Assembly: GCA_030386875.1 (NCBI GenBank)
Contig: CM059564.1
Span: 63,717,936-63,781,935, forward strand
Direction of reading: 5' to 3'
Length of the DNA: 64,000 bases
Origin: Morinoia aosen
Taxonomy: Eukaryota; Arthropoda; Malacostraca; Amphipoda; Talitridae
The translations under genes were made by a program, and so were the position numbers. Below are positions 12,585 through 62,047 of this stretch, piece after piece. Under the pieces are notes generated by a model. It searched no databases and was not told the origin of the DNA. It worked only from the letters and a program-made list of their open reading frames with translations. Numbering within the stretch: position 1 is the stretch's first letter; each line of letters starts with the position of its first letter.

Positions 12585-12951
12585 GCCCCTCAGGGGGATA
12601 CAACTATTGTATCTATGGGAATTAGCGCTCCCAGGGGAAAAATGTGAGGGCCCGAGCTGAGAGTTAGGTAGGCCTTCTTTTTGTTGGAATGAAATGTTTT
12701 TTGTTATGTTACGGACCACCTTTTTTCGGTTCACTACTGTCCTGTTTTTCAGCACCTCTGACTTTCTTCTTCAACTTTTATCTTATTTCATGAACTTCTT
12801 TTCCATCTTACTGTTTCTATGCCTTTTCTGCATAGATTCCTCCTTTTCTTATCTCCATACTAAATGGTGCCTTCCTCCTTCCTCTCTTCGATACGCTCTA
12901 TTTTTGCAGCGGTTAGGGAGGCTTAAACTAACTTATAATCTAATCTAATCT
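12585..12951 (+). mobile_element. Family A retroposon, copy 1 (intact, short subfamily)
   Basis: This is the best-preserved copy. It starts with CCCCTCAGGGGGATACAACT, continues through AATTAGCGCTCCCAGGGG and CCGAGCTGAGAGTTAGGTAGG, and ends in GGTTAGGGAGGCTTAAACTAAC followed by a tail of ATAATCTAATCTAATCTAAC type. A 15-bp perfect direct repeat, AACTACCTCATATTA, flanks it at 12570-12584 and 12952-12966. A variable-length target-site duplication plus a short-repeat tail is typical of LINE-mobilised SINEs. I see no A/B box pair of tRNA type. The internal polypyrimidine tract CCTGTTTTTCAG ends at 12752 and resembles a 3' splice site. The 84-codon sense frame is hydrophobic and lacks any known domain. 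Confidence 0.9.
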
Positions 12952-12966
12952 AACTACCTCATATTA
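12952..12966 (+). repeat. Target-site duplication of copy 1, right arm
   Basis: Identical to 12570-12584 over 15 bp. It follows the (AATCT)n-like tail of copy 1. Confidence 0.9.
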
Positions 12967-14850
12967 TTACAGCGTTACACTAGATAAGACGAAGACCAAT
13001 CGACAGGACGGAGACACGAGACACAACTCGTGAATGCCTCCTGCACTTCATCATTCAATCTACTTAGTGACGTGGGCCGGGAAAATGAGGCGGTAGACAG
13101 GATAATAAGGAGGCCTGGAGCCGCGTACCCGGCGTGCACTTCCCTTGTGTCGCAGCGCCCGCCGCACGGACGCGAGCGTGCGAGTGCCGTCCCGAAGTGA
13201 GGCTCATTAGCAGGACTTGCGTGACGCTCTTGTCTCCACAAACTGGCGTCGACAGATTTACGGGCCTTCCATCGCCCTAACTTATTCCTAAAGTGTTCGT
13301 CTCCCGCGCCAGTGCACTGCCCTTTAATAGCTTAACTATGGAAATTTCGTCGAGGAATGCCATTTGTTTCCGCCGCGCATTTTTGTTAAGCTTTTATCCA
13401 AGCGCTATCCGAGCTGGCCTTTCCCTATGGATGGCGCTGACCGTTTTGGTCTCGCCTTTTGTTGCTTGACATTTTAAGCGAGCTGTTGAAATCTGCAAAC
13501 GTATTACTTACGGATTTCATCAGAATTATGATAGCCAAAAGCTAACCCTCGTTAATCTTAGCTAGTCTCTGTAATCAACCTTTTTTGTTATATGTTTAAA
13601 GCTCATTCACCTCGTTTCATGGCCATGAGGCTATCAAACGCCCTGCACTCGATCTCGTTATTGCTGCTCTTGTACACTCTTTGTTTTTCTCCTTGGAAGT
13701 GCTTTCTGCGCTTAGGCGGGTCAAGTTTGCATCTCATTCGTGCCGTTTTAAAGTGATTTAAATTATCTGCCTGGTCCATGTCATGCTAATTTTGAATATT
13801 GTTTGACTCAGTTTAAGAACTTCAAGAGATTTTACGGATTTCGCGGAATCAACGTTAACAGTCTTTTATTAACTGTGGAGTACATCAAGAATTTTTTTAT
13901 AAAGATGACATTATAGTCTTCTCGGACTTCAAAAAGTATATAGTTATAGTTTTCTCGGACTTTAAGTGAAAGTAAAAAGTAGTATGTTCCCATGCTTAAT
14001 ATTTTACGATGTAACTTTTATACCTTTCAGTTATATATTCCCAAACAAAAATGAAAATTCTTCTGCATCAAGAAAGAGCTACGCCAAATGCCGCTCATCA
14101 GATTCCACGTCGTCATTGTTGACCGAGGTATTTCTGCTGGTCTTGCTAATACGCTGGCATCTTCCTCAATGCCTGTATATTCATAGACCCTAACAGATCG
14201 CAAAGTAATTAAAAAATAAACTTTGATCACATATCGGTCGATAGAGATCATTTACCAACTCAATATGAACTTTGGACGTAAATCTTCTCTACCTGTTCAC
14301 CCATGATCACAATTCGTTATCAGCTATACTGATATTAAATACGAAACTTATCGTGTGGAGCAACCTTCTCTCGTTCACAGCTCGCTGCCTTGCGTCAGAG
14401 CATACATTCAAGCCTGGGATTCCTGTCCCTCCATATCGGTCGTCGTTTGTGGAACGGTTCATGGTTGTCCGTTTTATTCAGTGTCTTATTCCTTTAATAT
14501 GAGCTTTCTATTGAGCGACGTTCGGGTCTCCCAGAGGCCACGAAAGGACCTTTGAATGCCCGCACTGACAGCATCAGACGATAAAGTGTCGGGTGCACTG
14601 CGGCCGCCCGGTGCTGCGCCAGTACGGGATTGTGGCTGCCTGCCTGCAGCGCTGTGTGTGTGTATGTGTGCGTTGTATGTATATATTGCGTGTGTGCATG
14701 TCTGTGTGTGGGTGATGGGTGTTGTGGATGTGAGTGTGTCGCTTTCTGTTATGCTTATGAACCGCTCGTCCAGCATTCTAAGAAGTAGATTCAAATTTAC
14801 GTGGTTTGATTGACATGTGTTCATTACGATGTTTTGTTACAGAGATCTCT
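12967..14850. other. Unassigned sequence with CpG-rich patch and TG tract
   Basis: About 13060-13260 is GC- and CpG-rich, with an 88-codon frame on the minus strand that I cannot match to any family. A TG-rich low-complexity stretch follows at 14651-14740. Nothing else is recognisable. Confidence 0.4.
14651..14740. repeat. TG-rich imperfect microsatellite
   Basis: Interrupted TGTG/TATG dinucleotide repetition. On the complementary strand it reads CA-rich and creates a low-complexity frame. Confidence 0.75.
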
Positions 14851-14854
14851 TACA

Positions 14855-15205
14855 GTATTGTCTACAGTGTATTTTCTTCGGAATTAGCACTCCCAGGGGG
14901 AAACTGTGTGAGGGCCCGAGCTACAGGTTAGGTAGACCTTCTGTTTGTTGCAATAAAATGTTTTTTGTTAAAGGACCTCCTTTTTTCTGTTCACTGCTGT
15001 CCGGTTTTCAGCACGCTACTTTCTTCTTCAACTTTTATATCATGTTTCATGAACTTCTTTCTCATCTTACTGTTGCTATGCCCCTTCTGCATAGTTTCCG
15101 CGTTCCCTTATCTCCATACTAAATGGTGCCTTCCTCCTTCCTTTCTTTGGAACGCTTTTTTTTAGCGATTAGGGAGGCTTAAACTAACATCTAATGTAAT
15201 CTAAC
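14855..15205 (+). mobile_element. Family A retroposon, copy 2 (short subfamily)
   Basis: It contains GGAATTAGCACTCCCAGGGGG, GAGGGCCCGAGCT and GGTTAGGTAGACC in family order, then the TTTTCAGCACG acceptor-like motif, CTCCATACTAAATGGTGCC and TTAGGGAGGCTTAAACTAAC with a TCTAATGTAATCTAAC tail. The first 25 bp are degraded, so the exact 5' end is uncertain and no target-site duplication is evident. It lacks the ~28-bp internal block, which groups it with copies 1, 11 and 12. Confidence 0.85.
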
Positions 15206-16528
15206 TTCGCGAAAAGATGAACTCCACCATAACGTATAGAGTCGGAAATAACATTTTCATTAGACAAATAAATACTTCAGAAGTTAATTAACTCGAAGAC
15301 TTCCAGTTAATTATAGACTGAAGAGAATGATTATTTCTAAGCTGTTCACTAACGCTCAATTTCATCACGGCGACGGATAGCTATAGGTCACTGCTCGTAG
15401 AGTCCTTAAACTTCGAAAAATAAGCTACTGCTCGCCTAAGGAGTAAATTTCTTCTGTTTTGATATTTTCACTCACCTCAATTTGAAGTTAACTTCATTAT
15501 TTATAACGGACCTTCCAACATTCGCAGTAAAGAAGACCTATAGGCAAAACAAAACTTCAGCGCAGTTTGAGTCGTGCAAAATTCATAGTACATTATTATC
15601 GTCTCTGGTTTTTTATGAGCGAGGAGTTTTTTCAAGGAAGTTGCGTTGATGATGTTAGTCTTCGGTATCTTATCTCGGAGATTTGACGAACGTCAAGGAT
15701 ATCTCTTAATGCTCGCTACAAAATTAGCAGCACTTGTATCAAGAGACAATCGGCAATCTTGAGAGTGACTAAGGAGAGAGATTCGTTAAAGCGATCTTCT
15801 TTCTCTTACCATCGAGACGTCTGCCACCTCAGTTTTACCACCAATGGTGATGCACTTGCGAAGGCCCCCGAAATATCATATGCTCCCTGTGCGACTTTTG
15901 GTGCTGTCAACAGGTATAATGCGTCCAAAGCGCGTTATTTGAACACTGTGTTTTTGTTCATTAATGCTGCTGCTCTTGAGGCCGAGATCGCATGTCAGTC
16001 TGCATTATATTCATGTTATTTTGCCAAATTTCACTGACGGCTTTCTCGCTCATGTAAGGTTTTCTTACATTACGGGACTTGCGGCCTGCGACTCGAATAA
16101 GAGCGTGTGCATGAATGCACGGTCGCTCAGTTCTCGAGTCCTTTTTTCTGGAGGATTCAAAACCTTGACTATCCTACATCTCTTATTTTTTCCTTGCACG
16201 CAATTCACCGTTTAAAGAAGAGTACTTTTATAGCTGTGTTTGCTATATTATCTTCGATTTTATTCATCTCTTTTGAACGAACTATCATCCATTTTTTTCT
16301 GAAATAGCGGCCCTGTCTCAGCGTCATCTTTGCCTCAAGGTATCTCTCCTATGGAGATTCTGGCGTTGAATTCATCCTTCGTTATTGAAGATGCCGATAT
16401 GAGACCATTCGGAAAATATTTCATTTTTGTTCAATGTCTACACCCATTAGTTCATCCATTTTATATTTTACATCTGTACATGAACATGGTCTCTTGCACT
16501 TTTAGTTCATGCTGCTACATCCAAAAAA
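15206..16528. other. Unassigned sequence between retroposon copies
   Basis: Ordinary AT-rich sequence. Plus-strand frames of up to 92 codons near 15760-16040 and 16330-16540 show no domain. Confidence 0.4.
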
Positions 16529-16900
16529 CCCTCAAGAGATGAAAGTTCGTTATCTATGAGAATTAACGCTCACGGGAGGAATATGTGAGGTCTCTAGCTT
16601 GACCCCTTTCTTTAAAGCAAAATATATTTACAAATATTTATTTTTACAGATCGTCTTCTTTTTGTTCCACTGCTTTTTTTCAGCAGCTACTGTATTACTT
16701 TGTTCATCAACTTTTATCGTATTTCATTAATTCCTATCAATCATGCTGTTTCTTTCTAAACGCAGGATGTGGAGATACACGTTGTGCATAGATTCCTTGT
16801 TTCTTTAATTCCACACTAAATGATGCCTTCCTCCTTCCTCTCTCGGGAACACCTTTTTTTGGGGTTGAGTAAACTTAAACTAGCTCGTAACCCAATCTAC
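16529..16900 (+). mobile_element. Family A retroposon, copy 3 (long subfamily, diverged)
   Basis: It begins CCCTCAAGAGATGAAAGTTC, matching the family 5' end with substitutions, followed by TATCTATGAGAATTAACGCTC. It retains TTTTTTTCAGCAGC, the internal block with GCAGGATGTGGAGATACACG, and CACACTAAATGATGCCTTCC. It ends in a mutated AACTTAAACTAGCTCG. Divergence and the long internal block suggest an older insertion. No target-site duplication survives. Confidence 0.8.
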
Positions 16901-21774: not shown

Positions 21775-22722
21775 TTACCGTGTTAAGTATCAAGTATGGC
21801 ACAACGTTACGCTGTTTGGGTTGCTTGTTTAGATGACGTCCCTGCGGTTAATTCTAATCGTTTAATTAGTCCCTTGTTTTGAGCAACGTTTCGTTTCTAG
21901 GAAAAGAGATGCTGTTCTTCGTGGCTCGCTAATTGTTCGTAGCTCACCTCGCTTTTTCCTACAACTCCTGGCGCGCTCATGACTATTTAATGTAGTTCCA
22001 GTTCTATGTATTGTTTATTTCCCCTCCATGCGTATTCGTGCCATATTCGCTATCAAACGATAAATCATTCATCTTACAATCATAGACCAAATAACAGAGA
22101 TCGAAATGTCGGAGATCATGAGGACACCTAAAACGACTGTGTGTAGCTAAGGAAAAAAAGGTCCTGCATATCAGGGTGTGAAATAAGAGCTTTAGCTCAA
22201 CATTCGATACGTGACTGCAGCTCTGCTATATTCTGTGCTCGAGCACACAAGAGGGAATAAAATGCCTGACATCTTAGTGCAACTCTCATCGTGCATGAAC
22301 CCTTACTTCAGCACTGCTCGGTGCTCGCTGCGTGCAAGACAGAGCCTGTTTATCGTGCTGCCTTCAGTGATTAGTGCTGTATTAAGTGGTCAGGCTTCTG
22401 TTATAGTATTGCCTTCATGGACTTGCCGTTCAAGGGGAAAAAAAAGTTGAACTCGAACTGAAAATATGACCAGCCCTCTGTGTGTAATTGACCTCCATTA
22501 AGAGCAATCAAGTTTCAGCGAATTATTTTTGGTATTTTGTACGTCATGAAACGCACACATTTTCCAAATCGGATAGCGCTTTTGAGCGTTATACTCTCTG
22601 GATCGTTTTTACATTTTCACTCGCTACCTGTTTCTTACTGGATGTTAGCGCTAAGTTTTACTGAAACTTAATTAAATCATGCACACATTTCGGTATTACT
22701 CACGGTTTCCTTTAAAATATAG

Positions 22723-23014
22723 AAAAACTACTGTATCTATGGGAATAAGTGCGTCTACGGGAAGATGTGCGATCTAGAACTGAAGGTTGGATAAGCCTTT
22801 TGTTGAAGTATAAATTTTTTAGTTGTGTTTCTCAACCGTATTTTTTTCGGACCATTGATGCTTTTCCAGCACCTATTCCTTTCTTCTTCAACACCCAATA
22901 ATTGTGCTTGGGTTTCCCGTCCCTTTAATTCCACACAGAATGATAGCTCCCTTCTTTTCTTTTAAGAACATCTCCGTTGGAGTATGGGAGGCTTAAACTA
23001 ACCTTTAATCTAAC
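22723..23014 (+). mobile_element. Family A retroposon, copy 4 (internally deleted)
   Basis: It starts within the family at ACTGTATCTATGGGAATAAG and continues through GATGTGCGATCTAGAACTGAAGG and TTTTCCAGCACC. A central segment is missing between the TTCTTCTTCAAC block and the CCACACAGAATGAT block. It ends GGGAGGCTTAAACTAAC plus a CTTTAATCTAAC tail. The first ~17 bp of the consensus are lost. No target-site duplication is visible. Confidence 0.8.
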
Positions 23015-23430: not shown

Positions 23431-23708
23431 ACCCCCAAGGTAGAGACTGTTAGGTTACTTCAGCTGTAGCTAAGCCTTCGGGACTCGCGTCATTCGCGCC
23501 TACTTTACTTCTTTTAGTTTTCATGCCTTCTTCGTTACCTTTCTATTCTATTTTGCTAACTTGTTACTTCTATCCGTAGGGTATCGTATGGGAGAACTCG
23601 CCTTATGCATAAATTCAAGTTTTCTCCAGCATACCAAGCGGCTCCTCTTCGCTCTCTTGCGATCGCCTTTGGTGTGTCTAGGGAAGTCTTCAACTATCTA
23701 ATGTTTAA
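23431..23708 (+). mobile_element. Family A retroposon, copy 5 (divergent subfamily II)
   Basis: The 5' end ACCCCCAAGGTAGAGACTGT and the motif CTTCAGCTGTAGCTAAGC differ from copies 1-4 but match the copy at 60064. It then follows the family plan: pyrimidine-rich middle, the long internal block with GTAGGGTATCGTATGGGAGA, TTATGCATAAATTC, and TAGGGAAGTCTTCAACTATC at the 3' end. This marks a second subfamily. No target-site duplication is seen. Confidence 0.65.
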
Positions 23709-26232: not shown

Positions 26233-26243
26233 AGGATGAATTT
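26233..26243 (+). repeat. Target-site duplication of copy 6, left arm
   Basis: AGGATGAATTT directly precedes the CCCCTCAGGGAG start of the retroposon and recurs at 26641-26651. Confidence 0.75.
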
Positions 26244-26640
26244 CCCCCTCAGGGAGATACAACTATTGTACCTATGGCAATGAGCACTCCTACAGGGAAT
26301 GTGTGAGGTCCCGAGCTGACAATTAGGTAGGCCTTCTTTTTGTTGAAATAAAATGTTTTTTGTTTGCTTTGTTAAGGACCATCCTTATTCGGTTCACTGC
26401 TGTCTTGTTTTTCAGCATCTCTAACTTTTTCTCAACTTTTATATCTTGTTTCTCTAACCTTCCTTCTCAACGTACTGTTTCTATGCGCAAGGGATCTTGT
26501 GCGATAACACACCTTGTGCACAGTTTCAGTGTTCATAATAAATGGTGCCTTCGTCCTTTCTCTCTTTGAACACATTGTTCGAGCTAAAAGAGACTGAACC
26601 TAACCAATCCTGTTATATGAATGTTGTTATATGAATAGGA
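26244..26640 (+). mobile_element. Family A retroposon, copy 6 (with extended tail)
   Basis: It begins CCCCCTCAGGGAGATACAAC and keeps AATGAGCACTCC, GTGAGGTCCCGAGCTGACAA, TTAGGTAGGCC and CTTGTTTTTCAGCATC. The long internal block is present as CGCAAGGGATCTTGTGCGAT. The 3' end is worn (GAGACTGAACCTAACC). It is followed by a tail containing two copies of TTATATGAAT, then the 11-bp target-site duplication AGGATGAATTT (26233-26243 and 26641-26651). The tail differs from the (AATCT)n of copy 1, so tails evolve freely or come from slippage during priming. Confidence 0.88.
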
Positions 26641-37636: not shown

Positions 37637-40055
37637 CCATGTAGCGTTAAATCTGGACTCCTTGTAAGGCCATTCAACATCATAATCCTAATGCATTAGT
37701 ATTTTACCACCGGCTGATCATATTTAGTTTTTAGAGTATGATACTTCTGTGTGCCTGTATTGAATCTAGGCTTATTGTTTCAGTGATAACATATTTTTAT
37801 GTTCACTAATTTCTTTCGGCGACACTAAAAGGAAAATATACTTTCCACAAGGTTTCTCATTCTTGATCATTTAACCATGTGCTGGACTTTCATTATTCAA
37901 CCTCTCCGCACTAATTTCTGTTGTTACTACGATCAAATTTTGCAGTAGTATGTTGTAACAGAACTAAAATCTAATTTAAATCAGAGATATGATTTGCAAA
38001 AAAGTGAAAAATATTCGAATGCCATGTATATGCATTCATCATAGTGTCTTGAGTTGTGTACTCTCGTTGGTGTTTCAGTTCATCATCGCGCACAGCTACT
38101 CCCAGCGATTGCTGTAACGCGCGTCGCAGAATTGTGCGAGGGGAAATCTCGCAGCATTTACTGGAGGGAGGCTCGCGTACCGTACAAATGACTGCTTGCC
38201 GCGTGTCATCTTTTTCATTTTCTTATTCTTCGCCTTTTTGCCTCGCCCCAACACGCTGGTGCACCGCCTCTTTTGGGCGGCTGTAGCGAGCGTTGTCGGC
38301 TGAGATGCTGGTGTTTTGAGGAATTGTGCTCGTAAAGCTAAATCTCAGTTGAATTTTACTTAGACGTTCTTAATCATTACGCTCTTATAACTGTAATTTT
38401 TAAATAGCGCCCAATTAATTAGCGCATATTTCAATTGTTTAATATTGGTAAAGTTCGTATGGAATTATTCTTTCGGTGGTCAGTTATGAGCACGGTAGTT
38501 ATGAGCAGTATAGGAAAAGGTATGATCCAACGTAGGATTTTTGCCCAAGCAGCATCGAATGTTACTTGTCTGGTTTCCAGTCACTACAACGAACAATTTT
38601 AATTTTTCTTACTACAGGTCGATTAAAATATGCATTGAAGCATTGCTTAGTGTGTCACATTTCTGCAGTTTTTTGTATCAGCACGTACACTGACCTAGAG
38701 CTTTTGACTTCAATTTTTGTGACAGCTAGGGAGCCTGAGTCCTCTAATATGCAGGTAGTCCAAAGTGCGTTATTGTGGTACGTAAAACATGCTTCCTGAA
38801 TTCTAACATTCTGTTGCTCATCAACATGAAGTCACGAATATTCTCGTTTAGCTTTGATCGGAATTTGTCATTATAATTATACTCTTGCAACCGTTGGTAG
38901 TCGCTCGTCCCCGACTGTATTTCTGCACTCCATGGCCGACAGTTTACCCTGCGGAAATGCTGCATGAGCCTCTGAGCAAGAAGCGAACGTCTTAGATTAA
39001 TGCTCTGGATGTTGCCGTCGTGTTGACATTCCCGCCAAAAGTTTTTGCTGCCTTCAGTATAGCGGGAAATTGTTCTCGAGGGACGTGATAAATTCTTCCT
39101 TGCCGAGGTCGTAATGTGATCAATTCAGCAGCCCAAACCTCTGGGAATGAAGTTCTATTCATTGTGCTGGCGCATCTTATGGTTGTGACGTAATTTTTCT
39201 CACTCCCGTCAAGACCTTCCCCAACCGCGTAATTTCTCAAGCCAAAATGATGTACGAGCGTTCCTTCCCTTGCATGCAAGAGCCGTTTACGGTATGGTTT
39301 ACCTGAACCTAATCACACGTGATTAGTCCTGTGTTGTTGCTCTCATGTTGATTGTAAGCTGGGCAAAAGAGGCTCTATGCGTTTTGATTACAGCTCATGT
39401 TGCCTGAATGGAGGAAAGTGCCTGAGCGAGGTGGGCCTGAATTACAGATGACGAGTGAACTAGACCTTATCAAGGCAGCCGAGTTCACAAAGCTGTGCAT
39501 GCATTAATTATTGAGCGAGGCTCGTAGAGCCCAACGTTCTGTCCTGCAGGATTACGAAAATTACTACACAATTAAATTCAGTAGCTCGTTCTTGTGTCTG
39601 CGTGTGCCGTGTGTTTGCTGGCTCTTCGTGCTTGTGCGCGTTAATGCATGATGCTTGCATCCCCTCTGCTTTGGATATAGGGTTTTCAACGCGCTCAGTA
39701 TGTTCCTGGAAAAAATATTTGTGATTTGTAGTGTTGGGTTCCAATTTATGATTCAAGAGTGATTAAATATGGTTATCGATTAATAACTTTTATTTTAAGA
39801 GAATGAAGTGCAGGTCTAACTTTTGCGTAATTTTATGAGCATTTTTGTAAGTTAAAAGTCATAAGTTTTTCGCTAATTGCAATTTTTTTGGCTGAAATTG
39901 TAACGATTGTCATTTTTTTTTACTTGAAATTTTGTTTTGATGTTTGAGAATTACTTGAACATTGTTCATCGTTCTGTCTTCCGGATACATTTTCTCTGAA
40001 GGAACGCACATGAGGAGCTGCCTCCCTTAAAATGAGAAATTATCCACATGTTCAA
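37637..40055. other. Unassigned sequence with one CpG-rich patch
   Basis: 38050-38300 is CpG-rich with a 76-codon plus frame, not recognised. Minus-strand frames at 38744-38965 and 38992-39279 (73 and 95 codons) are adjacent and fairly GC-rich but carry no domain I know. The palindromic motif at 39309-39326 is listed separately. Confidence 0.4.
39309..39326. promoter_or_regulatory. Inverted TAATC pair around a CACGTG E-box
   Basis: CTAATCACACGTGATTAG has two inverted TAATC/GATTA cores, the type bound by Otx/Pitx/Bicoid-class homeodomains. They are separated by ACACGT and overlap the palindromic E-box CACGTG. The arms CTAATCAC and GTGATTAG pair perfectly. This is a plausible composite binding site, but short palindromes of this kind also arise by chance. 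Confidence 0.25.
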
Positions 40056-40400
40056 CACCTCAGAAGAATAAAACTTTTGTGTCGATGGGAATTAATGTTC
40101 TCACGGGAAAATGTGAAGTCCTGAGATGAGAGTTAGACCGGATTTTTTTGTTGAAATATTTTGTTTGTTGTGAACCCTCTTTTTTCGGTTCACTGCTGCC
40201 ACGTTTTTCAAAGCCCCTAGCTTTCAACTCTTATCTTGTTTCATAGCCTTCCTCCTCAGTGTTTCTGTGTGCAGGGACAAGGGCGCACCTTGTCCATGGA
40301 TTCCGCGTTTCGTTAATCCCATACTAAATAGTGCCTTCATCCTTTCTCTTTTTGTAAAGCCTTTGTTGCGGTTAGGGAGGCAAAAACTAACTTGTCTAAT
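40056..40400 (+). mobile_element. Family A retroposon, copy 7 (long subfamily)
   Basis: Recognised by GATGGGAATTAATGTTC, GAGATGAGAGTTAGACC, TTTTTTCGGTTCACTGCTGCC and TTTTTCAAAGCCCC. The splice-acceptor CAG has decayed here to CAAAG. The long internal block GTGCAGGGACAAGGGCGCAC is present, then CATACTAAATAGTGCC and GGTTAGGGAGGCAAAAACTA at the 3' end. The 5' end is diverged. Target-site duplication is not clear. Confidence 0.85.
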
Positions 40401-43249
40401 AATGTTCCATCCATATGCTTAGTATGTTGATGCGCCGTCTGTGTTAAGGTGAGAGCTCTTCAACTTCAGATCATGCTGTCAGTCACAGCGACCATCTTAA
40501 ACCGGGGATACTCGGCAAATTCGTCGTCCCGGCGAATTATTTAGTACGTTCAGTGTAGACCAGCTTGAAAAACTACCATCTGTGATGATGTAATTATTAT
40601 CGAAACACTTCTATTATGAGCTATTTATTGAGTCACGTCTGTTTTGTCTCGAGCGATTGTTTTCTGTCTATATTATGTCGAACAAAACTATTTATTAATA
40701 TCAGTTTTCGTTCTCGGAAGTTGATGGTGACCGGAATGTTTCCCTCGACCACGTATCGGCATTTCCTTTACAATAGCTTCATTTCATATGCAAGTGAAAC
40801 CAATCATCGCTAAAATTCTGGTAAAATTGCCACGTATTTCACTTCAACTTCTACGCATGTGGTGTGCCATTTTGAGACTGGTAAGCGACGCACATGGCTC
40901 AAGACACACCTGTCCTGATCTGCACTTGGGAGCGCAAATATGCATGGCTCGCTGGCATGTACTGTTATGGGCGACAGTGGCTGGAGGGCTGTGCAGACCC
41001 TGCATAATAACGCCATTAGTATTCTGAAAGCTTTTGCTTCTAGTGGCAGACCTTTGAAATCTTGGCGCTTCTACGTGTCATTGAAACTTGGGGCGAGCTT
41101 GTCTTGGTGTTCAGTGGAGGTCCTGCCGTTACTTGCTCCTGCGCGTACCTGAGCATGGATATACTTATTTGTAGGAGTTTACTGTTATTGTACATTGTAC
41201 CGCTCCTGGATGTGGTCACTGTGGAAATGATGTGCGAGTTGAATACAAGCGGGTGCACTTGTGGCTTATGCATATGTGGTTCTAAATGAAAAAATTCTGC
41301 TGATTGCGTGCTTGTGGGGACTGACAGCAGTCTCTGTATGAACTGCCAGACGCGCGCTCATCTTTTTAATTAATCCTATGTTCGTCGAGCCAGATGTACT
41401 CGAATGTAACTTTTCGAACGCCGCTTAAACCAATACAAATTCTTCATATTTCACCTTTCTATTTGCTTGGCAAATATACCTTCAGTGAACTTCTTCGATT
41501 CTCAGCAGGGTCGTGTCTCGAGTCGCATTAACCCTGACTTGTGGCTCTCAATAACAATTCTTCGAATCGATTGGAAAAAACGTGAATTTTGCAAGTGTTG
41601 TTCCTGAACTCAAAGCAGATGGGGTAACTCATGTTTCTACCTCCATTGGTGCGGTTCTAATCGTCTTATAAATGAAGTAAGTACAAATGTATATCCAATA
41701 CCGTAACATTATTGGGAATCTGAATTGTGTCTTATGGCTCATTCTCTGCGTATTTTTACGGATGAATAGCGAAGCTTTTACATAACGAAGCTATGAGTGC
41801 TCAGCATTCTATGTGTATACGAGAAATTCTGCCGAATTTTCTCTACGCTGTTCATCAAAGCAAGAGAAAATGCTCATCATGGCTTTGGTTGATGGCATCG
41901 TGAGCTTCAGCTTCAATACATTGTTCTGGCCGTAAGCCCCTTAGTAATGGCTTGATTCATCTAAACGTAGCATCGGAATTAATTTCTCCTTTGATCATAA
42001 ACGAGACATTGTTTTGAATTCCCTCTACCGTTTAGTTTGGTGTTTCGTGAAGATACAGAGCAATTTACCAGTTTTCTGAAATATCCTCCATCTGATGAGC
42101 TTAGTGCAAGCAACTCGGTATATGAGGAATCGTTCTTAAAAGTAGCCAGGATGATGTGCGATTTTTTCAGCACTTTTCAAATTACCGATTTTTTTTTCAT
42201 AGACGTTTAAACTCTATTTGAGTCTGCTCACTTATAGAGCTGATCGAGTATTTGCGCGTGAGTGGCAAATTTACATAAAATTGGGTCCGGCCCGGCCCTT
42301 TGGTACGTTTTTTCGCGTTAGGTAAAATCATTGCTGTTATGGACGTGTTGCAACGGTATAGCATGCTTGGACGTCACGTTGTGTTGCTGCCTGACAATAT
42401 GTTTTATTCTGGCCTTTTCATATTGAGAATAAAATCAACTTTACCGATGGTATGACAAATGGCTTAATCCACTATTCCTGGCTTTATTGTATTGCTTCCT
42501 AATTATATTATCGCTCATAGCTCCGTCACGGGACATTCCATATGATTTTCCATTTCATTTACAAACGAATTTTTAGGTTTTTATTTCAAGACTTCGCGTG
42601 TCTCTCGGAACAAATTAGCTGGTCTTCAGCGCAGTACGGTAAGACTTTGAAATTCTTAACCGGTTTTAGGGAGCATCATTCATGTAACTGGGAAATTATT
42701 TGTTACTTGAATAGATTGTCTATTCTTTCTATCTGTATTTATTCATTTCTGTTAAACATGGCTATCAAAATTTCTCTCTGACGCAATTTTCCTCCAGTTT
42801 TATCGTTGTCACATACCGTCCTTGAGTGGAAAAGATTAATTCTCTCGTTACTAGGCCATGGGATTTTAAAGTGACTGGCATGAGTACGTGATATTCAAGC
42901 GCCTCAGTGGCTGACACAGCTTTTAGTGCGCCCTGCTCTTACATAAATACGAAATAAAGTTTATACATCGAATTTTTTGTTGCTATAACTCTTACAAGGA
43001 GAAGAAATTGCGTCAATTCCAACCAATTTGTAACGGTCTCGCTAGCGGACACAACTGTGTTAAATATCGGTGTGTGTTCGATAAATGATTTGTTTTTGTC
43101 TAAAGCAGTATACGGGAAGCTAAAATAATTTATCCATGGTAGACGAAATTATACGCATGCATCCTAATTAAAAACAATGCCTCGTATTGATCGCATCGCT
43201 TTGTACCCTTCCTGTTTCTGGTTTGCGTGCATTCGAGCTTGGATCCAAA
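40401..43249. other. Unassigned sequence
   Basis: Overlapping short frames of up to 79 codons on both strands at 40620-41290 have no recognisable product. The remainder is AT-rich and featureless. Confidence 0.4.
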
Positions 43250-44022
43250 CTTTAGTCCTACTTATCATTAGCGCATCCAGAGGAAAATGTGAGGTTCAGA
43301 GCTCAGAGTTAGATAGGTCATCTTTTTGTTCTGGGGTAACAGAACGTTTTTTTTTTATTGGTCAAGGACAATTTGTTTCTGTTCACTGTTGTGTCGTGAC
43401 TGCTGGGCCTTGGTCTTTATCTCGATAATAATACGACTATATTTTCTTTCGCTGCAATTATCGAATTGTGACCACTAATTTTTTTCTGTTTTCTGGTCAA
43501 TCATTGAATCATCGAGGCACGATTTCTCGTGTCGAATTATGAATCGAAACTGTAGCTGCAACCACCCAAAAGAGATCCTATTTGTGTCAACAAGAATCAA
43601 TACATTTAACTCAATGAACAATTCGTATGGACGATAATACTTTGTAAAGACGAGGCATGGGTAAACATGGTAAGCGATTGGTAAGCATGGCCTAATGATA
43701 TTAATTGTCATTCACGTCCATCTCTATTATTGATATTGATCGTCTTTTCAAACTTAATTATGGAATGATGCACTGGCTGGTCGTAACTCCATGTTCTTAG
43801 CGTCACTGTTTTGGTCGTGGATCATCGGTAGTTATAAGCAATTCTTCTAGAACTTTTATTTTATTTCATAAACTTCCTTCCTAACTCGCCGTTTTAATAC
43901 GCAGGGACTGTTGTGTGGAGACAGACGCTGTGAATAGATTCTGCATTCCCTTGACTCCTCATTTTTTGGAAGTTTAGCGCTTGTTGGGTTTAGGGAGGCT
44001 TAAACCAACTCATAATCTTATG
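43250..44022 (+). mobile_element. Family A retroposon, copy 8, interrupted
   Basis: The 5' part (about 43250-43398) has CATTAGCGCATCCAGAGGAA, GAGGTTCAGAGCTCAGAGTT and TTCTGTTCACTGTTGTG. The 3' part (43803-44022) resumes with TCACTGTTTTGGTCGTGG, ACTTTTATTTTATTTCATAA, the long internal block GCAGGGACTGTTGTGTGGAG and TTTAGGGAGGCTTAAACC. The two halves sit in the correct order and orientation. The ~400 bp between them has no family A similarity, so a later insertion split this copy. Confidence 0.8.
43399..43802. mobile_element. Insertion inside family A copy 8 (unidentified)
   Basis: About 404 bp lies between the two halves of copy 8. It is bracketed by TCACTGTTGTGTCGTG (43383-43398) and TCACTGTTTTGGTCGTG (43803-43819), which look like a target-site duplication with minor changes. 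There are no obvious terminal inverted repeats, no poly-A tail and no ORF with a recognisable product. It contains GGTAAACATGGTAAGCGATT and GGTAAGCATGG, a small internal duplication. It may be a different SINE or a truncated LINE end. Confidence 0.55.
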
Positions 44023-46189
44023 TATTCACCAAGAGGGACCTAAGTTTGATGTGCTGATTTATGTCGGATTTTCACGTTAGGTGACGAGAGCCTTACCCAA
44101 CTGCTCGTAGACTACGAGGACATCTTTGCTGCACATTCGCCTTCGGGAAATTGCTCTCCCTTCATAGGTAATCCCTATACGGATGAGATTTGTAGGCAAC
44201 ACTTTCTTAGGTTAGCATTGGTCTGTTCTCAATTGAAATTGAAATCTTTTGATGCGTGGAGATTGTTGAGAAATTCATGAATAGGTATCAACGGATGGGA
44301 ACGAAATTTTCTAGTTTCGTTAGAAATGAGCTCGTTCTTGCTTAGTGCTGACTAACGTCAGCCATTTAACTCTTTTCATTCTTCGTGACCAAGTATCCAC
44401 TCAAACAAATCCCCGCCTCACATGAAGTAACAATTCTTTCTAAATAAACAGACTCGAGACGTCCATGGAACTAGCCTTGTTTCTTGGGAGAAAGTCGTAA
44501 GCCTTAATACGAGTTTGTTTTAGGCAGTTGGGCCGAAAAGTTTAGTGCAGCGTCGGGAACCGGCGACCCCGTCCAAGTGCAGTCTTCTTGGCAGCTCAGC
44601 GTCGACCGAGTGGCGGTGCTTCAAGGAAATTTTCTTCCTCGGAAAGCATTGAAATCGTTGCAAATGAGATCGCCCGATGAAATTTAGCGACTGTTTATGA
44701 CTTGATACGATGAACGAAAGTCCCCATTGTATACGAATGCCTTCAAATGATCGCATCCATTTTTGGGTGGCTCCGCTCTGTATTGAGGAACAGAAAAGTC
44801 CAAAGCGAGTGGTCGTTTTGACGCTAAGCTTTCGAAACATCCTTCAGCTTTTAGCCCCTTGGTTTTTTTTCTCCAATACTTTTTTTCTGTTTTATATTTT
44901 TGCGTCAATGTTCGTCTTATTTACATAAGTAAACATAATTCAAGGTTTGTCGTGACTAGGATTTAAAGTTATTTCACTCTCAGCAAATTCTCTGTCCTCT
45001 AATTTTAGCCAGAATTTTTTTCTTTGTTTAATCAAACTTGGGCTTGGTCATAGTGCCAGTCCGTTTCAAGACTCTCTGGGCTTGACTGTTTACAGAATAC
45101 GGAAGATGGTTATGGTGAACTAGTAGTAGTAAATATCGCTGATAAGTTAGACGAAAATAATGAGTTATTTGCATGAAGTACATTTACGATTGTCTTTCAC
45201 GAACACCCAACGACAAAAGTGGGACATTTCGAATGGGAACTTAAATTTTTAGGTAATTTGTTTCGTTCGCATAACATCTTCTGAGAGGTCAAAGCGGCTT
45301 CATGAAGCAATGATTTAATCCAATGCGAGTATACTTCACGCGTGAGAACTTGGAAGTTCCCATAAATTGTGGCTTTCGTATCCCGGTTCACACCGCATAA
45401 CCTCGACTCCAGTCGCAAAAGTGAACTTGCTCGTTTTGTGGACTTGCTCGTTCCGTGGACTTGCCCCGAGTTCGTACTCCGCGTTCCCTCTTTTCCCCTC
45501 GTTTGAAGCTAAAAAGTGCGATTCATCACGCGCCCTCAGCCACGTGACCGCGCGCGTTTTATGGCACAGCTGCGGTCGTCCTCTTCGTTTTACTGCGGAA
45601 GTGCCGATTTTCAGTTTCATCGGTTTCTTTGTTTGCTCCTTGACTTGGTTCTTTCGATGTGAAGAACTCGTGGCCGATGCTGTTCTTTGTGCTCTTTTCC
45701 TCTGATCAATAGCGTTAACTGCGAGCGGGGTTGAGTTGTGGCGTGAGTGAACCGATTTGTTCCCAGTGTGTGATACCTCCGCTGCTTTCCTGGAATTTGG
45801 CTTATGCTACTTCGTCAGCTGGTGCTCAATTGCGTTTCAACGATCACGTTAAAAGAAAAATTAGGCAGCGGGTAATTGAGGCTGCGCAGACACTCCTCTA
45901 CCAAAAGCAGCAGATTTCTTGACTTAAGGTAATATATTGCTTCTTTATTTTTCAGTTTCTCCAAGATGTTTGTGCTTTTCACTCTGATGCTTTTTGACAT
46001 GTTCTTTTTTATTCTAAATTTCTAAACTTCTCAGATGTAAAGCATTCATATTCCTTCCAATTACTTTTTGGACCATCTCTACATATCTACAAGGAGCACT
46101 AAAATGCCTTGCAAAAGCTCATGATTTAAGGAACTAGCAATTTTAATGGTAAGCCAAGTATGCGAAGTCGTCTTTGTATTCATTCATTC
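44023..46189. other. Unassigned sequence
   Basis: A GC-rich patch at 44540-44640 and a longer one at 45400-45720 are open on both strands (up to 112 codons) with no domain. A short tandem lies at 45421-45470. No gene call is supported. Confidence 0.4.
45421..45470. repeat. 17-bp tandem repeat, about 2.7 units
   Basis: GTG(A/G)ACTTGCTCGTT plus two pyrimidines is repeated, the third unit breaking off after GTGGACTTGCC. Confidence 0.8.
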
Positions 46190-46524
46190 TTTGTAACTTT
46201 TGTATTCATGGGAACTCGTACTCCCAGGGGAAGATGCGAGATTCCGAGCTGAACGCTAGGTAGGGGTTCCTTTCTTTGAAATAGAATAGTTTTTCGGCGT
46301 TTATTACCCTTAAACTCTTAATTACTTTTTGTTACTCTTCTTCTATTTTTGTCTTGTCTTATAATTTCTCTAAATCTCGCTTTCTGTGCGTAGGGTGTGG
46401 GGACACTCTGTGCTCAGATTTCTGTACCTCAATTCCAGACTAAATCGAGCCTTCCTCCTTCGTCGCCCGCAAGCACCTTGGTTGTGGTTAGATGAATTAA
46501 ACTAACGTGTAATCTAATGTAATC
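46190..46524 (+). mobile_element. Family A retroposon, copy 9 (long subfamily)
   Basis: Family order is clear: TTGTATTCATGGGAACTCGT, ACTCCCAGGGGAAGATGCGA, CCGAGCTGAACGCTAGGTAG, then a shortened pyrimidine-rich middle, GCGTAGGGTGTGGGGACACT, CCAGACTAAATCGAGCCTTC and GTGGTTAGATGAATTAAACT with a GTAATCTAATGTAATC tail. The acceptor-like CAG segment is deleted. No clear target-site duplication. Confidence 0.82.
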
Positions 46525-49025: not shown

Positions 49026-49032
49026 GGGCGTG

Positions 49033-49403: not shown

Positions 49404-49429
49404 TCTCGTTGAAAATGCTGGAGATTCCT

Positions 49430-49860: not shown

Positions 49861-52800
49861 CTTACGATTACCACATTGTAAACAGACCAGGCTTGCAAGG
49901 TCCACAATTTTACGAGTTTCTGATAGCGTTAACGGAACTTCTGATTTTTTATTGTAACTCAAATTCAAAATAAGAAAGGTTGATGAAAATATCTTGTGAG
50001 TGTTTAAGCCGTGGCATTTTGAGCTTATGTGCAATGTTTTCACGGTTTTAAAGTTTTTTTTTTCGAGGAGCCCATGATGAATATCGAAATCGAAAACTAC
50101 TTGTGTGAATCATGAAAGTTATATTAAGTTTGGATGCTAAATTTGAATTTCATGTTGGGTATTTGTGACTACTTCATTTTTAATCTGAGGTTTATGCTTC
50201 ATAAAATTGATTGAGGCTTATCAGATTAGATATTATTATGGAACTTAATTTACTGTCTTGTTCAACTCACGAGTTTGATTGTTATTTACGTTACTCTCAT
50301 AGAATTTATTAACTTTTACGTATTACATGCAGTGCTCAGGATGCTTGAGTGAACGTGTGCAACTATTGGATTTTTTACTATTTTTTGTCCGATCATTCTT
50401 GTTATCTTGATGTATTTTTTTTAATGTACGTAGCCTATAATCTGCTGCTCCGTGAACCGTGCATCTATTTTTAAGTACTTTGTTGTGCGTCATGAAAATT
50501 TCCTATAGCAGCACTAAAACTATTCTTCAAAATATTACTTGTCGCGGATTTCGTGACAACAACCAATCGTGCCCCCGAGTTTCGTGCAGCCGAGCATTGC
50601 TACATGCAATATTTTTCTATCTCGGATCCGGACTTCTTTCCTCACCAAGCCCCAGCATTTGGTGGAAGTTCGAATCGCCATCTATTGTGGAGTTTGTCGC
50701 AGAAGGGCTATTAAATTTTCTACTATATACTAAAGAGCTGCTCACTCTTTGCTGTAACTATACATGCATTCAAAATCGCGCGGAATGCTTGCGTTTTTCC
50801 TCGCTTATAAAGGACTTTGAAGCCAATTTGTATGTTGTATCTCCTCTAAGAAGCTTATGAGAATTATGTCTATTTTTACTATCTATAGGAGAGTATTGGA
50901 ACGTTTTTCTTAAGATTCTGTGAGGGTGAAATTTGCTTCTTTACTTTTCTTTGCAAGCACAAATCTAGTTTGAATTCTTAAGCTTCTGCATCCTTTACAG
51001 ATTCGAATTAAACCGCCAAGTACTTCGATTGACTGATTAGATGTCTGACAGAGCTAAGCTATTGTTTTTATTTTCCGGATACCTATACCTGTGTTCATGT
51101 GCTCCGTTTAAAACTTATTTATTCAGCTGAGTAATTTTCGAAAAAACTTTCTTTTATTTCACGAAATATATATAATTTCGTGTAAAATGATCAATAAGAT
51201 ACAAAATCCCGTAATTTTTTATCAGACTTTGAATGTGACTTACAGTCTTGGGATATTACAAGCCCCGGAACATAATTTGATCTCGTTTGATGCTGCTCAT
51301 TCAAACACCTGCGGCGTTTGTGTCACGTTGTAGTTACGACGTGATACTAAATTAATCGGTCTTTATGCTGTAAAAGTTGATTCACATGCATGTGTTTATT
51401 TGGTTCGATTTATTCGGTCTCTCTACCCAAGCGATGAGTTGAATGCCATTGAAGCGAAAGCGAGAGTCAAACCCTGCTTACGTCATGGCTAACCCTCTGT
51501 TAATCTCGACGCTAGAATGGTCACAGGATAGGATAGCATTGACCTCGAGATCTGTGTTGGATCAAGAGCTCGTATTTGGTTAATTCATTCCGCTGTGTTT
51601 ACTGAAGGGTTGTGGCTCTCGTTCTGGTGTGTTGTGGAGATCCTAAACGGAGGGTGTGTGCAGCTCTGAGGTTCCGACTGCATTTCAGGGGGTCTCTTCA
51701 TCTCTGTATTTGTAAGGGAATTCATTATCAGCGGTTCTTGAACATCCTGCTTTTCGTGCTCGATAGGCAGGATAGAATATCAACTTCCACTGTTTACTGC
51801 CGACGGTACACTGGGTGGGTGTTTGCAGAGCCTACAGCTAGAGTACGTGGGGTCAGGTATGCGTTCTTGAGAACGCTCATTTCACCGCGCTGTTGTTGAC
51901 GTAATGACGAGCAAAACATTTAAACATTGAATGGTCGTTCTTGTTATGCTGTTTGAGGGTAAAAGTGATCTATTATAGTAAAGTATCGAGGTATAGAGTA
52001 TCTTGCTTTATTCAGTTAAGGGTTTTTATAGGAGTGAGAGTTGTACTTGCATTTTTCGTTCGTTATGCGTGATGTAGGATGTGAAAAAAATACTATTAAA
52101 TACCTCTTCGGAACTCATCAGAGTGACATAGAACTCTTGTCCGGATGCGCGTGGTGTTCAATGGCCTACTTTAATTACAATTCACAAAATAATGCATCTT
52201 TTGTTAATAATGCCATCAATCGTGCTCTGAGCCGTACTCAAGTTTAAAGAGCTTTGATTTGAAGAGCGTCGAAGGATACAATTCGAATAGTTTCTCCCAT
52301 TTAACATAATACACCGTCAAAGTTTTTGAGTATGCATAGTTGAACCTCATGACAGCGTATGAACAATTTTCAAACTCTCTAACTTTTTTTTAAATCATTC
52401 TAGATAGAGCCATTGGATTACTGGTCAAGTGGAGTGCAATGTCCCATGTGGTTTTCGATGTTAAATTCTGCAGTGATTTTTGTTAATTGATCGCAGACAC
52501 GTGTTGTTGTTTTTCAGTCGCGGCGACTTAAGCGCTCACATTTACTCCCTCATTTGTCAACAGAATGTGAACATCATTTCGTATTGATTTAGCCGTTAGG
52601 GAGTGTTTTTTTACTGCAGTTATTATGACCGTGACGCAGTTAGAGTACACAGATAATTTCCTAGCTCTGTAGGGGATAATAATAAAATTGACTACTTCGC
52701 GTTTGCTTAAACAATAGAAAAATCTCGAGATGTGCTGTGACCGATGCAGAAAAATAGCAGTAAAATGAAAGGTACCCGATATCTCCTGTTCACCCTAAAC

Positions 52801-54205: not shown

Positions 54206-54315
54206 TTGTGCGGAAATAAAATTTCGAGCAGAGCTTCACGAGGAACCATGCCCTTAATTATTTTCTCTCTTTGGAACATGTCTTGTAATTATGGCAAGGA
54301 ATGCTTAAACTAACC
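54206..54315 (+). mobile_element. Family A retroposon, copy 10 (5'-truncated, ~110 bp)
   Basis: Only the 3' third is present. It starts at TTGTGC, the position of TTGTGCATAGATTCCG in full copies. It continues through a worn CCATGCCCTTAATT and TTTTCTCTCTTTGGAACATG and ends GGAATGCTTAAACTAACC. The direct repeat ATTAAAGAAAT at 54195-54205 and 54316-54326 brackets exactly this segment. A 5' truncation with a flanking duplication is what incomplete target-primed reverse transcription leaves. Confidence 0.7.
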
Positions 54316-55312: not shown

Positions 55313-55334
55313 CTCTGTGATATCTAGCTTAGCG
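55313..55334 (+). repeat. Target-site duplication of copy 11, left arm
   Basis: A 22-bp segment beginning CTCTGTGATATCTAGCT is repeated at 55696-55717 with two mismatches. Confidence 0.85.
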
Positions 55335-55695
55335 GACTATATAGTACATGTGGAATTAGGACTCCCAATGGAAAATGTGAGGTCCCAAACTGAGAGTAAG
55401 GGTTAGGCCTGCTTCTTTTAAAACAAGTTGTTCATTAGTTACGGTCCATCTATTTTCGGCTCACAGCTGTTTTGTTTTTCAGCGCCTACAACTTTCTTCT
55501 TCAATTTTTATCTTGTTCCATGAACTTCCTTCTCAATGTACTGTTTCTATGTGTAGGGTATCTTGAACACACCGTGTGAATAGATTCCGAGTTCCCTCAC
55601 CTCCATGTTAAATGATGCCTTCTTCCTTCCTCTCTTTGGAATACCTTTGTTGAGGTTAGGGAGGCTTAAATTAACATAATCTAATGTTAGGAATA
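55335..55695 (+). mobile_element. Family A retroposon, copy 11 (long subfamily)
   Basis: The 5' end is short: it enters the family near GTGGAATTAGGACTCCCAAT. GTGAGGTCCCAAACTGAGAG, CGGCTCACAGCTGTTTTG and TTTTTCAGCGCCTACAAC follow. The long internal block GTGTAGGGTATCTTGAACAC is present, then CATGTTAAATGATGCCTTC and GGTTAGGGAGGCTTAAATTA. The flanking duplication (55313-55334 and 55696-55717, 22 bp, two mismatches) is the longest in the window and its mismatches give a relative age. Confidence 0.9.
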
Positions 55696-59742: not shown

Positions 59743-60063
59743 ATGCCTCGTTGAAATAACCTGTTCCTGAACTCGACTAGCTCGAAAGAATGATGACGCT
59801 GGCATGGTCAAAAGTTAACGAAGCTTCATTTTCTACTTTAATTTAACATGATAAAAGTGGCAGGAATAGCACTGTTATTATTTGAAATATAATTGAATAA
59901 GAATAAAATAATGGAAGCCCATGGAAGTATGCGCCCGTGAATGGGCTCAAGTTCTTGGCCGTTTCTGACTTTTTTTAATATTCTCAGTTAGCTTTTCCAT
60001 TGTGCTCATATTAAATTTCTGGTTCTCTTGTTGCGGTCGAGGCATTTCTATCCAGACATATCG

Positions 60064-60352
60064 CCCCCACAAGAGGAGATACTGTTCAGCTACCTCAGCT
60101 GTAGATTAGCGTTCAGGACTTTTATCTTCTGTGCCCACTAAGCTTCTATTTGTTATCATACGTTTTTTGCTACCTCTTCTTTCTGTTTTCTTCCATTTCC
60201 TTCCTAATATGCTGTTTCTAAGCGCAGAGTTTCCCATGTGAGGACTCGCCGTGTGCATAAATTCCTCGTTTTCTACAGTCCGTAGTAAATGATCCCTTCT
60301 CTTTGCGCCCTTAAGATCGTCTTTTTTTGCTAGGGTTTCTTAAACTAACTGT
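60064..60352 (+). mobile_element. Family A retroposon, copy 12 (subfamily II)
   Basis: Starts CCCCCACAAGAGGAGATACT and shares CCTCAGCTGTAGATTAGCGT with the copy at 23431 rather than with the main family. The long internal block GCGCAGAGTTTCCCATGTGA, GTGCATAAATTCC, AGTAAATGATCCCTTC and GGGTTTCTTAAACTAACTG follow. The acceptor-like motif is not preserved. No target-site duplication is found. Confidence 0.75.
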
Positions 60353-61009: not shown

Positions 61010-61017
61010 CAATGAAA

Positions 61018-61379
61018 TCCCTCAGGGGGAAACAGCTATTGTACCCATGGAATAAATGCTCGCAAGGGGAATATGTGAGGTCCCGAGCGATAGCTTAGGT
61101 AGGCCTTTTTTCTGTTGCAATATAATATATTTTTTGATACATTACGGACCATCTTTTTTCGCTTCCCTGCTGTCCTGTTTTTCAGCGCCTACTACTTTCT
61201 TCGCCAACTTCCATCTTGTTTCATGAACTTATTTCTCAACTTACTGTTTCTATCTATGCACCTTGTGCACAGAATCCGCGTTCCCTTTAGTCCATAATAA
61301 ATGATATGTCTGCCTCCTTCCTCGCTTTTGAACGCCTTTGTTGCGGTTAGAGAGACGTAAACTAACATCTAATATATTG
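61018..61379 (+). mobile_element. Family A retroposon, copy 13 (short subfamily)
   Basis: Starts TCCCTCAGGGGGAAACAGCT and carries GTGAGGTCCCGAGCGATAG, TTAGGTAGGCC, TCCTGTTTTTCAGCGCCTAC, the short internal form CTATGCACCTTGTGCACAG, AATAAATGATATG and GGTTAGAGAGACGTAAACTA. CAATGAAA at 61010-61017 and 61380-61387 borders it and is probably the target-site duplication, though 8 bp is short. Confidence 0.88.
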
Positions 61380-61673
61380 CAATGAAAACTCGCGTTAATA
61401 TACACTACTAATCGTGCATTTCTCTTCGAAATGATAAATTTAAAGATGTAGTTTACACGTCCTACAGCACTCGACACAAATTATGTTACATACGTAGGTG
61501 CTAGTGGGTAGGTGTTGGCCTAGCCGTTCATTTTGAGCATTGGCGTCCTATTTTCTTCTTCTTTTTGAAAATTTTCAGGTTGTCTCTACTTAGACCTTTC
61601 ATTTTCTTTATTTTGCATTTTATTTCAGTCGATCTAAATCTACGACATATCACTTGAACGCATGCTATTTAAA
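61380..61673. other. Unassigned spacer between two retroposons
   Basis: About 290 bp of AT-rich sequence with a TTTTCTTCTTC pyrimidine stretch near 61550. Nothing further is recognised. Confidence 0.45.
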
Positions 61674-61687
61674 AAGACCCACAGAAC
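61674..61687 (+). repeat. Target-site duplication of copy 14, left arm
   Basis: AAGACCCACAGAAC, repeated exactly at 62048-62061. Confidence 0.9.
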
Positions 61688-62047
61688 CCCCTCAGGGAGA
61701 TACAACTATTGTATCTATGGGAATTAGCGCTCCCAGGGGAACCATGTGAGGGCCCGAGCTAAAGGTTAGGTAGGCTTCCTTTTTGTTGTAATAAAATAGG
61801 TTTTTGTTTTGTTACGGACCATCTTTTTTCGGTTCACTGCTGTCCTGTTTTTCAGCACCTACTACTTTCTTCTTCAACTTTTTTCTTGTTTCATGAACTT
61901 CTTTCCTAGCTTACTGTTTCTGTGCACTTTGTGCATAGATTCCGCGTTCCCTCAACTCCATACTAAATGGTGCCTTCCTCTTTCCTCTCTTGGAACATCT
62001 TTGTCGTGGTTAAGGGAGGCTAAAACTTTCTTACATAATAATAACAT
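61688..62047 (+). mobile_element. Family A retroposon, copy 14 (intact, short subfamily)
   Basis: A second nearly complete copy, very close by eye to copy 1: CCCCTCAGGGAGATACAACT, GAATTAGCGCTCCCAGGGG, GAGGGCCCGAGCTAAAGGTT, CCTGTTTTTCAGCACCTACT, ATACTAAATGGTGCCTTCC and GGGAGGCTAAAACT, with an ATAATAATAAC-type tail. The 14-bp perfect duplication AAGACCCACAGAAC (61674-61687, 62048-62061) and low divergence mark a recent insertion. The frame from 61809 encodes the same kind of hydrophobic string as copy 1, which follows from shared sequence. Confidence 0.92.

Follow-up and report, generated by a model that had tools for sequence, protein, structure and literature searches.

Why should every copy of a dispersed repeat lie on the same strand, when retroposons insert in either direction? 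The question is raised by the window analyzed here, the whole stretch of 64,000 nucleotides, in which all recognizable copies of one repeat family read on the + strand. The preliminary description of this DNA made no mention of this single-strand placement, which is the more surprising feature.

A search of the window with the 17-base 3′ end of the unit, allowing at most three mismatches, found 10 occurrences against 0.15 expected from shuffles. A profile built from ten of the copies gave 14 matches (E-values 7e-108 to 1e-8), all 14 on the + strand, as is one isolated 17-base 3′ fragment. The family is therefore confirmed as real, far beyond chance. Two of the matches (43247-43392 and 43842-44024) are probably halves of one interrupted copy, which leaves 13 elements. 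The window copies are old. The features are listed below; apart from the 17-base fragment, every copy or part of a copy is a profile match.

12570..12584, + strand, 5′ target-site duplication AACTACCTCATATTA of the copy at 12585 (flank comparison)
12585..12951, + strand, full-length copy with a TAATC-type tail
12952..12966, + strand, 3′ target-site duplication of the copy at 12585
14846..15204, + strand, copy with a decayed 5′ end
16528..16900, + strand, old copy, about 66% identical to the consensus
22715..23013, + strand, old copy with an internal deletion
23551..23701, + strand, 3′ part of an old copy
26242..26606, + strand, copy with an 11-bp duplication, AGGATGAATTT
40053..40403, + strand, copy
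43247..43392, + strand, 5′ part of a copy, probably one with 43842..44024
43842..44024, + strand, 3′ part of a copy that the intervening DNA probably interrupts
46186..46522, + strand, old copy
54298..54314, + strand, 3′-end fragment alone, two mismatches to the 17-mer (17-mer search)
55322..55687, + strand, copy with a 21-bp duplication containing one mismatch
60187..60352, + strand, 3′ part of a copy
61015..61382, + strand, copy
61674..61687, + strand, 5′ target-site duplication AAGACCCACAGAAC of the copy at 61688
61688..62047, + strand, full-length copy of the subtype with an ACTTTCTTA...AATAAT tail
62048..62061, + strand, 3′ target-site duplication of the copy at 61688

The unit has a core of about 343 bp plus a tail. 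It begins with CCCCTCAGGGG and ends in GGGAGGCTTAAACTAAC, followed by TAATC-like tails; the fixed 5′ start described before is exact in the better-preserved window copies. Six copies had been credited with flanking duplications of 8–22 bp. Such duplications exist, but four or five are convincing, not six: they are clear at the copies at 12585 (15 bp), 61688 (14 bp), 26245 (11 bp) and 55328 (21 bp, one mismatch), and a weak 8-bp one can be seen by eye at 61015. Among 57 near-full copies, 28 (one of them a tandem duplicate) had target-site duplications, of 12–15 bp in 26 cases, and only 4 of 400 mismatched flank pairs scored in the control. The target sites showed a weak T|T preference. Where present, the duplications directly adjoin the unit ends, so the unit stops there rather than running on into a larger element with an ORF, the outcome that would have spoken against a SINE. 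Pfam searches of the three + frames of the window, up to about position 59,990, gave nothing over the cut-off (one sub-threshold match, to DUF4780, E 0.057).

High copy number was demonstrated in the 2.0 Gb host genome, which holds 19,191 exact 17-base 3′ ends (9,548 forward and 9,643 reverse; none for the reversed sequence used as a control) and 5,246 exact 47-base heads. Viral contigs contained no match to the 17-mer. Four bacterial stretches with it (L001–L004) were dropped, four being below the about 30 matches that chance would give in 257 Gb.

The short non-coding unit with exact ends, its many dispersed copies, the simple-repeat tail and the duplications are shared with SINEs such as Alu, B1 and the insect families, and support a LINE-mobilised, SINE-like retroposon, as first proposed. 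Unlike those SINEs, it has no recognizable tRNA, 7SL or 5S head. The reported lack of tRNA-type A and B boxes also held: A-box matches numbered 11 against 12.8 expected and B-box matches 6 against 4.3, and T stretches at least four long occur seven times within the 343-nt core, although the body of a SINE should be free of such Pol III terminators. ARAGORN (bacterial settings) found no tRNA gene in the window, and Rfam gave no match at gathering score there and nothing above chance-level matches in two copies tested alone. On these grounds a Pol III head was rejected. A self-cleaving ribozyme at the 5′ end was also considered; Rfam, whose models include the HDV-like and hammerhead classes, reported no such ribozyme for the two copies. 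The 3′ end was compared by eye with four sampled loci carrying reverse transcriptase-like frames: L013 had a 10-base match and L015 none, while L010 and L032 carry copies of the element, with which their 3′-end matches are mixed. This small comparison revealed no LINE sharing the 3′ end. A literature text search with short element strings returned no repeat-related title among the matches listed.

The uniform strand of the window copies recurs along contig C1, from which the first 100 of the 19,191 17-mers all come. Pairs of these copies had the same orientation in 28/28 cases at less than 10 kb, 46/47 at 10–30 kb, 70/80 at 30–100 kb and 124/175 at 200–400 kb; at 400–800 kb the figure was 123/251, coherence fading by about 400 kb. 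Exact 47-mers alone agreed in just 16 of 26 pairs at 30–100 kb. When 17-mers and 47-mers of the same C1 stretch (0–13.6 Mb; 120 copies) were combined, adjacent copies no more than 30 kb apart agreed in 63 of 66 cases. Leave-one-out prediction of orientation over the sampled loci was right for 90 of 92 copies, and equally so for those at least 90% identical to the consensus (25/25) and those below 80% (39/39). Other repeats in the same loci showed no coherence: of their 82 alignment pairs, 38 were concordant and 44 discordant. On these samples, copies are overwhelmingly of one orientation within domains of 100–400 kb. Ordinary jumping elements apparently do not behave in this way, and it is the coherence that is new. 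In literature searches on such an orientation bias or SINE, none of the matches listed described a sense bias close to complete, nor did the excerpts of PMC3088655, PMC2323293, PMC3446317 and PMC2911107.

Such coherence could be inherited if the copies were pieces of a larger, autonomous element or had multiplied by duplication of a whole segment. The common strand of the window copies would suit this, and one block of L028 was indeed duplicated together with its copy. The flanks differ, however, other repeats are not co-oriented, and identities to the consensus run from 63% to 93%; we regard this origin as scarcely credible, and the private duplications adjoining the unit contradict it.

What, then, sets the orientation of a domain? 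With the copies masked, T exceeded A on the copies' strand in all 24 loci with unanimous copies, a count that omits the bacterial stretches L001–L004, L014 (all N), L013 and L015 (no copies) and L006 and L008 (mixed orientation). Of 17 distinct bromodomain loci, 16 had their exons on the strand that the sign of this skew indicated. The 17 loci represent about 14 genes, L033 and L035 being close neighbours, as are L045, L047 and L049; the duplicated blocks L046, L048 and L050 were omitted, L051 was merged with L053, and four loci were enlarged to 7 kb, among them L056, which has no copy. Near identified exons, 15 of the 17 copies scoring at least 50 bits were sense, six of the 15 coming from one locus (L032); by gene this is 8 of 10, which taken alone is not significant (p 0.11). 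The two antisense copies are a full-length one in L053 (343.7 bits; the same copy as in L051) and a 104-bp fragment in L054 (64 bits). Matches below 50 bits, left out of the count, were antisense twice in L043 and sense once in L045, twice in L047 and once in L055. Exons predicted in L022 from splice sites and G+C-rich third positions were not counted, having no Pfam support. Read from the exon strand, and for these samples rather than genome-wide, copy orientation usually appears to be the direction in which the local gene is transcribed.

Base composition might by itself produce the bias, because the target preference is T|T and T-rich sites are commoner on the T-rich sense strand. The modelled sense advantage ranged from 1.2-fold for the core to 1.9-fold for the wide version, which is partly circular; this is too small beside the 15 to 2 observed near exons and the very roughly 40 to 1 imbalance per domain that 63/66 agreement needs. 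Composition alone was thus rejected as a most improbable cause. Orientation could instead track the replication fork, with gene direction merely correlated to it; domains of 100–400 kb suit replicons as well as genes, and replication and transcription can both yield a T/A skew. The exon strand nevertheless matches the skew sign in 16/17 loci, and so close an alignment of forks with genes would be unusual in animals, which makes this account unlikely.

A more serious contender, though one we still doubt, is that insertion occurs both ways and that selection purges from genes the antisense copies that disturb splicing. The antisense strand of the consensus carries ACA|GTAAGT, a possible splice donor that could render antisense copies harmful, and large populations could purge weak effects. 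The youngest copies found are still about 7–8% from the consensus, so selection after insertion has to be kept in view. The sense strand, however, bears a poly(A) signal, AATAAA, with T-rich sequence after it, so that sense copies are the ones ordinary selection would tend to remove, and the acceptor-like TTTTTCAG lies on that strand too. Over long stretches the bias has few exceptions, and it is equal in the youngest and oldest copies found, whereas other repeats at these loci show none. The excerpt of PMC3446317 ascribes the known orientation biases within mouse introns to selection, but those it gives are mild, and for SINEs opposite: fixed intronic SINEs number 282,011 sense and 343,528 antisense, or 45.1% sense, against near-uniform local orientation here.

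We consider a LINE-driven retroposon with transcription-dependent sense insertion the best explanation, with a probability of about 45%. The exact ends, simple-repeat tail and 12–15 bp duplications point to a non-autonomous unit that moves through an RNA copy and inserts by target-primed reverse transcription, with enzymes presumably supplied by a LINE. Since the sequence does not look like a Pol III gene, the RNA would probably be made by Pol II. Insertion itself would depend on transcription, the first, priming nick being made nearly always in the template strand of the transcribed region and so giving sense insertions. More tentatively, the coupling may be so tight that tens of thousands or more copies record the direction of germline transcription. 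If a family is locked to transcription direction in this way, it implies either transcription-coupled target-primed reverse transcription or unusually strong one-sided selection, and germline transcription units could be read simply from bare genome sequence.

Introner elements are also repeated units that keep a constant direction with respect to genes. Unlike them, the family described here has many copies per gene-sized stretch and LINE-type duplications and tails, and the unit gives no sign of being itself an intron. The copies of trypanosomatid SIDER/RIME retroposons, a group marked by a shared 79-bp signature, have a uniform strand; these too are short, degenerate and located inside transcribed units, a likeness of position alone, but the genome studied here probably belongs to an animal whose genes are spliced. 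According to the excerpt of PMC2323293, SIDER/RIME elements act in 3′ untranslated regions. A sense excess is reported for human SINEs 20–200 bp from exons in the part of PMC3088655 consulted; that of Alu is confined to exon edges, whereas the coherence found here spans 100–400 kb.

Two minor observations concern the contig ends and the 5′ end of the unit. The starts of C1 and C5 have no telomere-type repeats, and that of C2 reads N. The strings formerly named for small hairpins in the first 55 bp are exact in few window copies (CCCCTCAGGGG in one, the others in two), and the consensus, over its first 92 nt, has only a slight folding advantage over shuffled sequences (z -1.38), 20 of 200 of which did as well.

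The window was searched with a profile made from ten of its own retroposon copies, and 14 matches were obtained, all on the + strand (E 7e-108 to 1e-8). Two of them are probably the halves of a single interrupted copy, so the matches amount to 13 elements, plus a 3'-end fragment at 54298 recovered by the 17-base end search. That end occurred 10 times in the window with at most three mismatches (0.15 expected), and no inverted copy was found at the threshold used when the window was compared with itself. T exceeded A on the + strand in 32 of 32 consecutive 2-kb bins (1-64000), and CpG was not depleted (observed/expected 0.98). The window (C9:63717936-63781935) may lie within a 5' intron of a downstream plexin gene, or upstream of that gene; its end is about 66 kb from the sema exon.

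C9:63847538-63847990, + strand: plexin sema exon, within a 501-residue open frame, downstream of the window
C9:63909234-63949810, + strand: plexin cytoplasmic exons of the same downstream gene
Ending at C9:63262161, + strand: another plexin gene, upstream of the window

The consensus of 54 near-full copies (window and sampled loci) has a core of 343 nt, from CCCCTCAGGGG to GGCTTAAACTAAC. The tails after it include TTATAATCTAATCTAATC and TAATAAACTAAAC, and copies with the variant end ACTTTCTTA carry the tail AATAATAAT. A slightly looser rule gave 57 near-full copies for counting duplications. Flanking duplications were present in 28 of these, were 12-15 bp long in 26 of the 28, and stopped exactly at the first C of the unit in 16 of 27 distinct cases; a duplication score of at least 10 was reached by 28/57 true flank pairs versus 4/400 mismatched pairs. 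Insertion sites favoured T on either side of the first nick (17/27 and 19/27), a weak motif. The defined unit with SINE-type duplications proposed earlier was thereby recovered, and the element is very probably a SINE-like retroposon. A small look at four loci with RT-like frames found no partner LINE. The family may already carry a name. Locus L028 contains a tandem repetition (837-7707) whose unit, some 4.8 kb long, includes a SINE copy with its flanking duplication.

The lack of tRNA-type boxes or a known head was borne out: A-box and B-box matches lay around the chance level, ARAGORN found no tRNA, and Rfam gave no match in the window at gathering score; with E values up to 5 allowed, two copies yielded matches, all of them well short of that score. 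T stretches of at least four bases occur seven times in the core and, judged by sequence, should terminate Pol III transcription. The fold of the head was unremarkable (z -1.38).

High copy number, named in the preliminary description together with a LINE-shared 3' end as support for a SINE, was found across the genome (1.99 Gb, 29 contigs), with 19,191 exact 17-base 3' ends (9,548 and 9,643 by strand; reversed control 0) and 5,246 exact 47-base heads. The window and five stretches of C9 picked at round coordinates (114 kb) gave 28 BLAST matches, at most about 26 elements; if this sample is typical, the genome would by extrapolation contain several hundred thousand copies. The BRD4-like, plexin and bromodomain exons encountered point to an animal host.

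Orientation data cover one contig (C1) and the sampled loci. The first 100 of the 19,191 17-mers, all on C1 (0-13.6 Mb; 55 on +), formed 25 runs of equal orientation, against a shuffle mean of 50.5 (minimum 29; 20,000 shuffles). Pairs among them agreed in 28/28 cases below 10 kb, 46/47 at 10-30 kb, 70/80 at 30-100 kb, 95/121 at 100-200 kb, 124/175 at 200-400 kb, 123/251 at 400-800 kb and 200/450 at 0.8-1.6 Mb. With 17-mers and 47-mers pooled (120 separate copies, same region), 63 of 66 adjacent pairs at most 30 kb apart agreed, and the three others could be domain borders. Among the 47-mer matches listed (C1, 0-38 Mb), 12/13 agreed below 30 kb and just 16/26 at 30-100 kb. When each copy in the sampled loci was left out in turn, 90 of 92 matched the direction of the remaining copies, whatever their age. 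That orientation follows the direction of replication seems to us very unlikely.

With the copies masked, the T excess lay on the copies' strand in 24/24 loci with unanimous copies, 18 of them chosen because they are situated at retroposon copies. Composition alone could act through T-rich target sites being commoner on the T-rich strand, but in this simple form the target motif predicts merely a 1.2 to 1.9-fold excess.

Other repeats common to the loci were concordant in 38 and discordant in 44 of 82 alignment pairs, which are not independent and include palindromic, hence uninformative, ones. A repeat of about 230 bp at 62400-62648 of the window, partly self-complementary and probably a foldback or MITE-like family, also occurs in L016, L019, L022, L023, L024 and L030, in several both ways. 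Another dispersed pair (48359-48455 and 50581-50675) has one direction and 82% likeness. The window also holds a long minisatellite at 2460-3490 (25-35 bp unit, TGCTGAGGTATTCTGGGTTG...), whose repetition leaves three minus-strand frames open, and a tandem repeat at 49421-49853 (47-bp unit, 9.2 copies, 90% matches) adjoining a 20/40-bp repeat at 49055-49232.

Gene direction was compared in twenty loci around bromodomain exons of known strand (of 33 matches). Removal of three duplicates left a small sample of 17 loci, about 14 genes, in which the sign of the skew equalled the exon strand in 16, locus L035 being the exception. Copies of at least 50 bits near exons of known strand were sense in 15 of 17 cases (six of the 15 from locus L032) and in 8/10 genes. 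The exon-strand set includes a zinc-finger frame; BRD4 C-terminal exons on the minus strand of C1 at 13.04 Mb (BRD4_CDT, E 3.9e-8), which sit in a minus-oriented copy domain; and a plexin-like exon at L020 with splice sites on both sides, whose top phmmer match, Plexin A (E 0.4), is weak alone. Two genes, at L053 and L054, have an antisense copy near an exon, and there the skew disagrees with copy direction; L054 and the exon-centred L051 show the T excess on the exon strand, and the 7-kb L053 taken whole has almost no skew, an effect of its last kilobase. We consider that retroposon orientation is tied to transcription, with a probability of about 0.8.

As a tentative explanation of the bias, the first nick would depend on transcription and fall on the template strand, giving sense insertions. 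Removal of antisense copies by selection is a somewhat less likely alternative; simple selection is countered by the sense strand itself, in which AATAAA precedes a T-rich stretch and an acceptor-like tract also occurs. In the parts of the literature consulted (PMC3446317, PMC2911107), intron biases are mild and mostly antisense: mouse intronic ERVs are 32.5% sense (PMC3446317), and the LTR elements of chicken, zebrafish and fly are described as antisense-biased (PMC2911107). Fixed mouse SINEs in introns are 45.1% sense (PMC3446317).

On C1, a group of bromodomain exon matches (47.47-47.50 Mb) recurs almost unchanged about 350 kb away (47.82-47.85 Mb), either as a recent duplication or as an assembly duplicate. 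BRD4-type C-terminal exons occur on opposite strands 3 Mb apart, at L023 (C1:13.04 Mb, minus) and at C1:16.08-16.15 Mb (plus), and may represent two separate genes or an assembly block placed in the wrong orientation; of the three bromodomain exons with the best scores, two lie at these sites.
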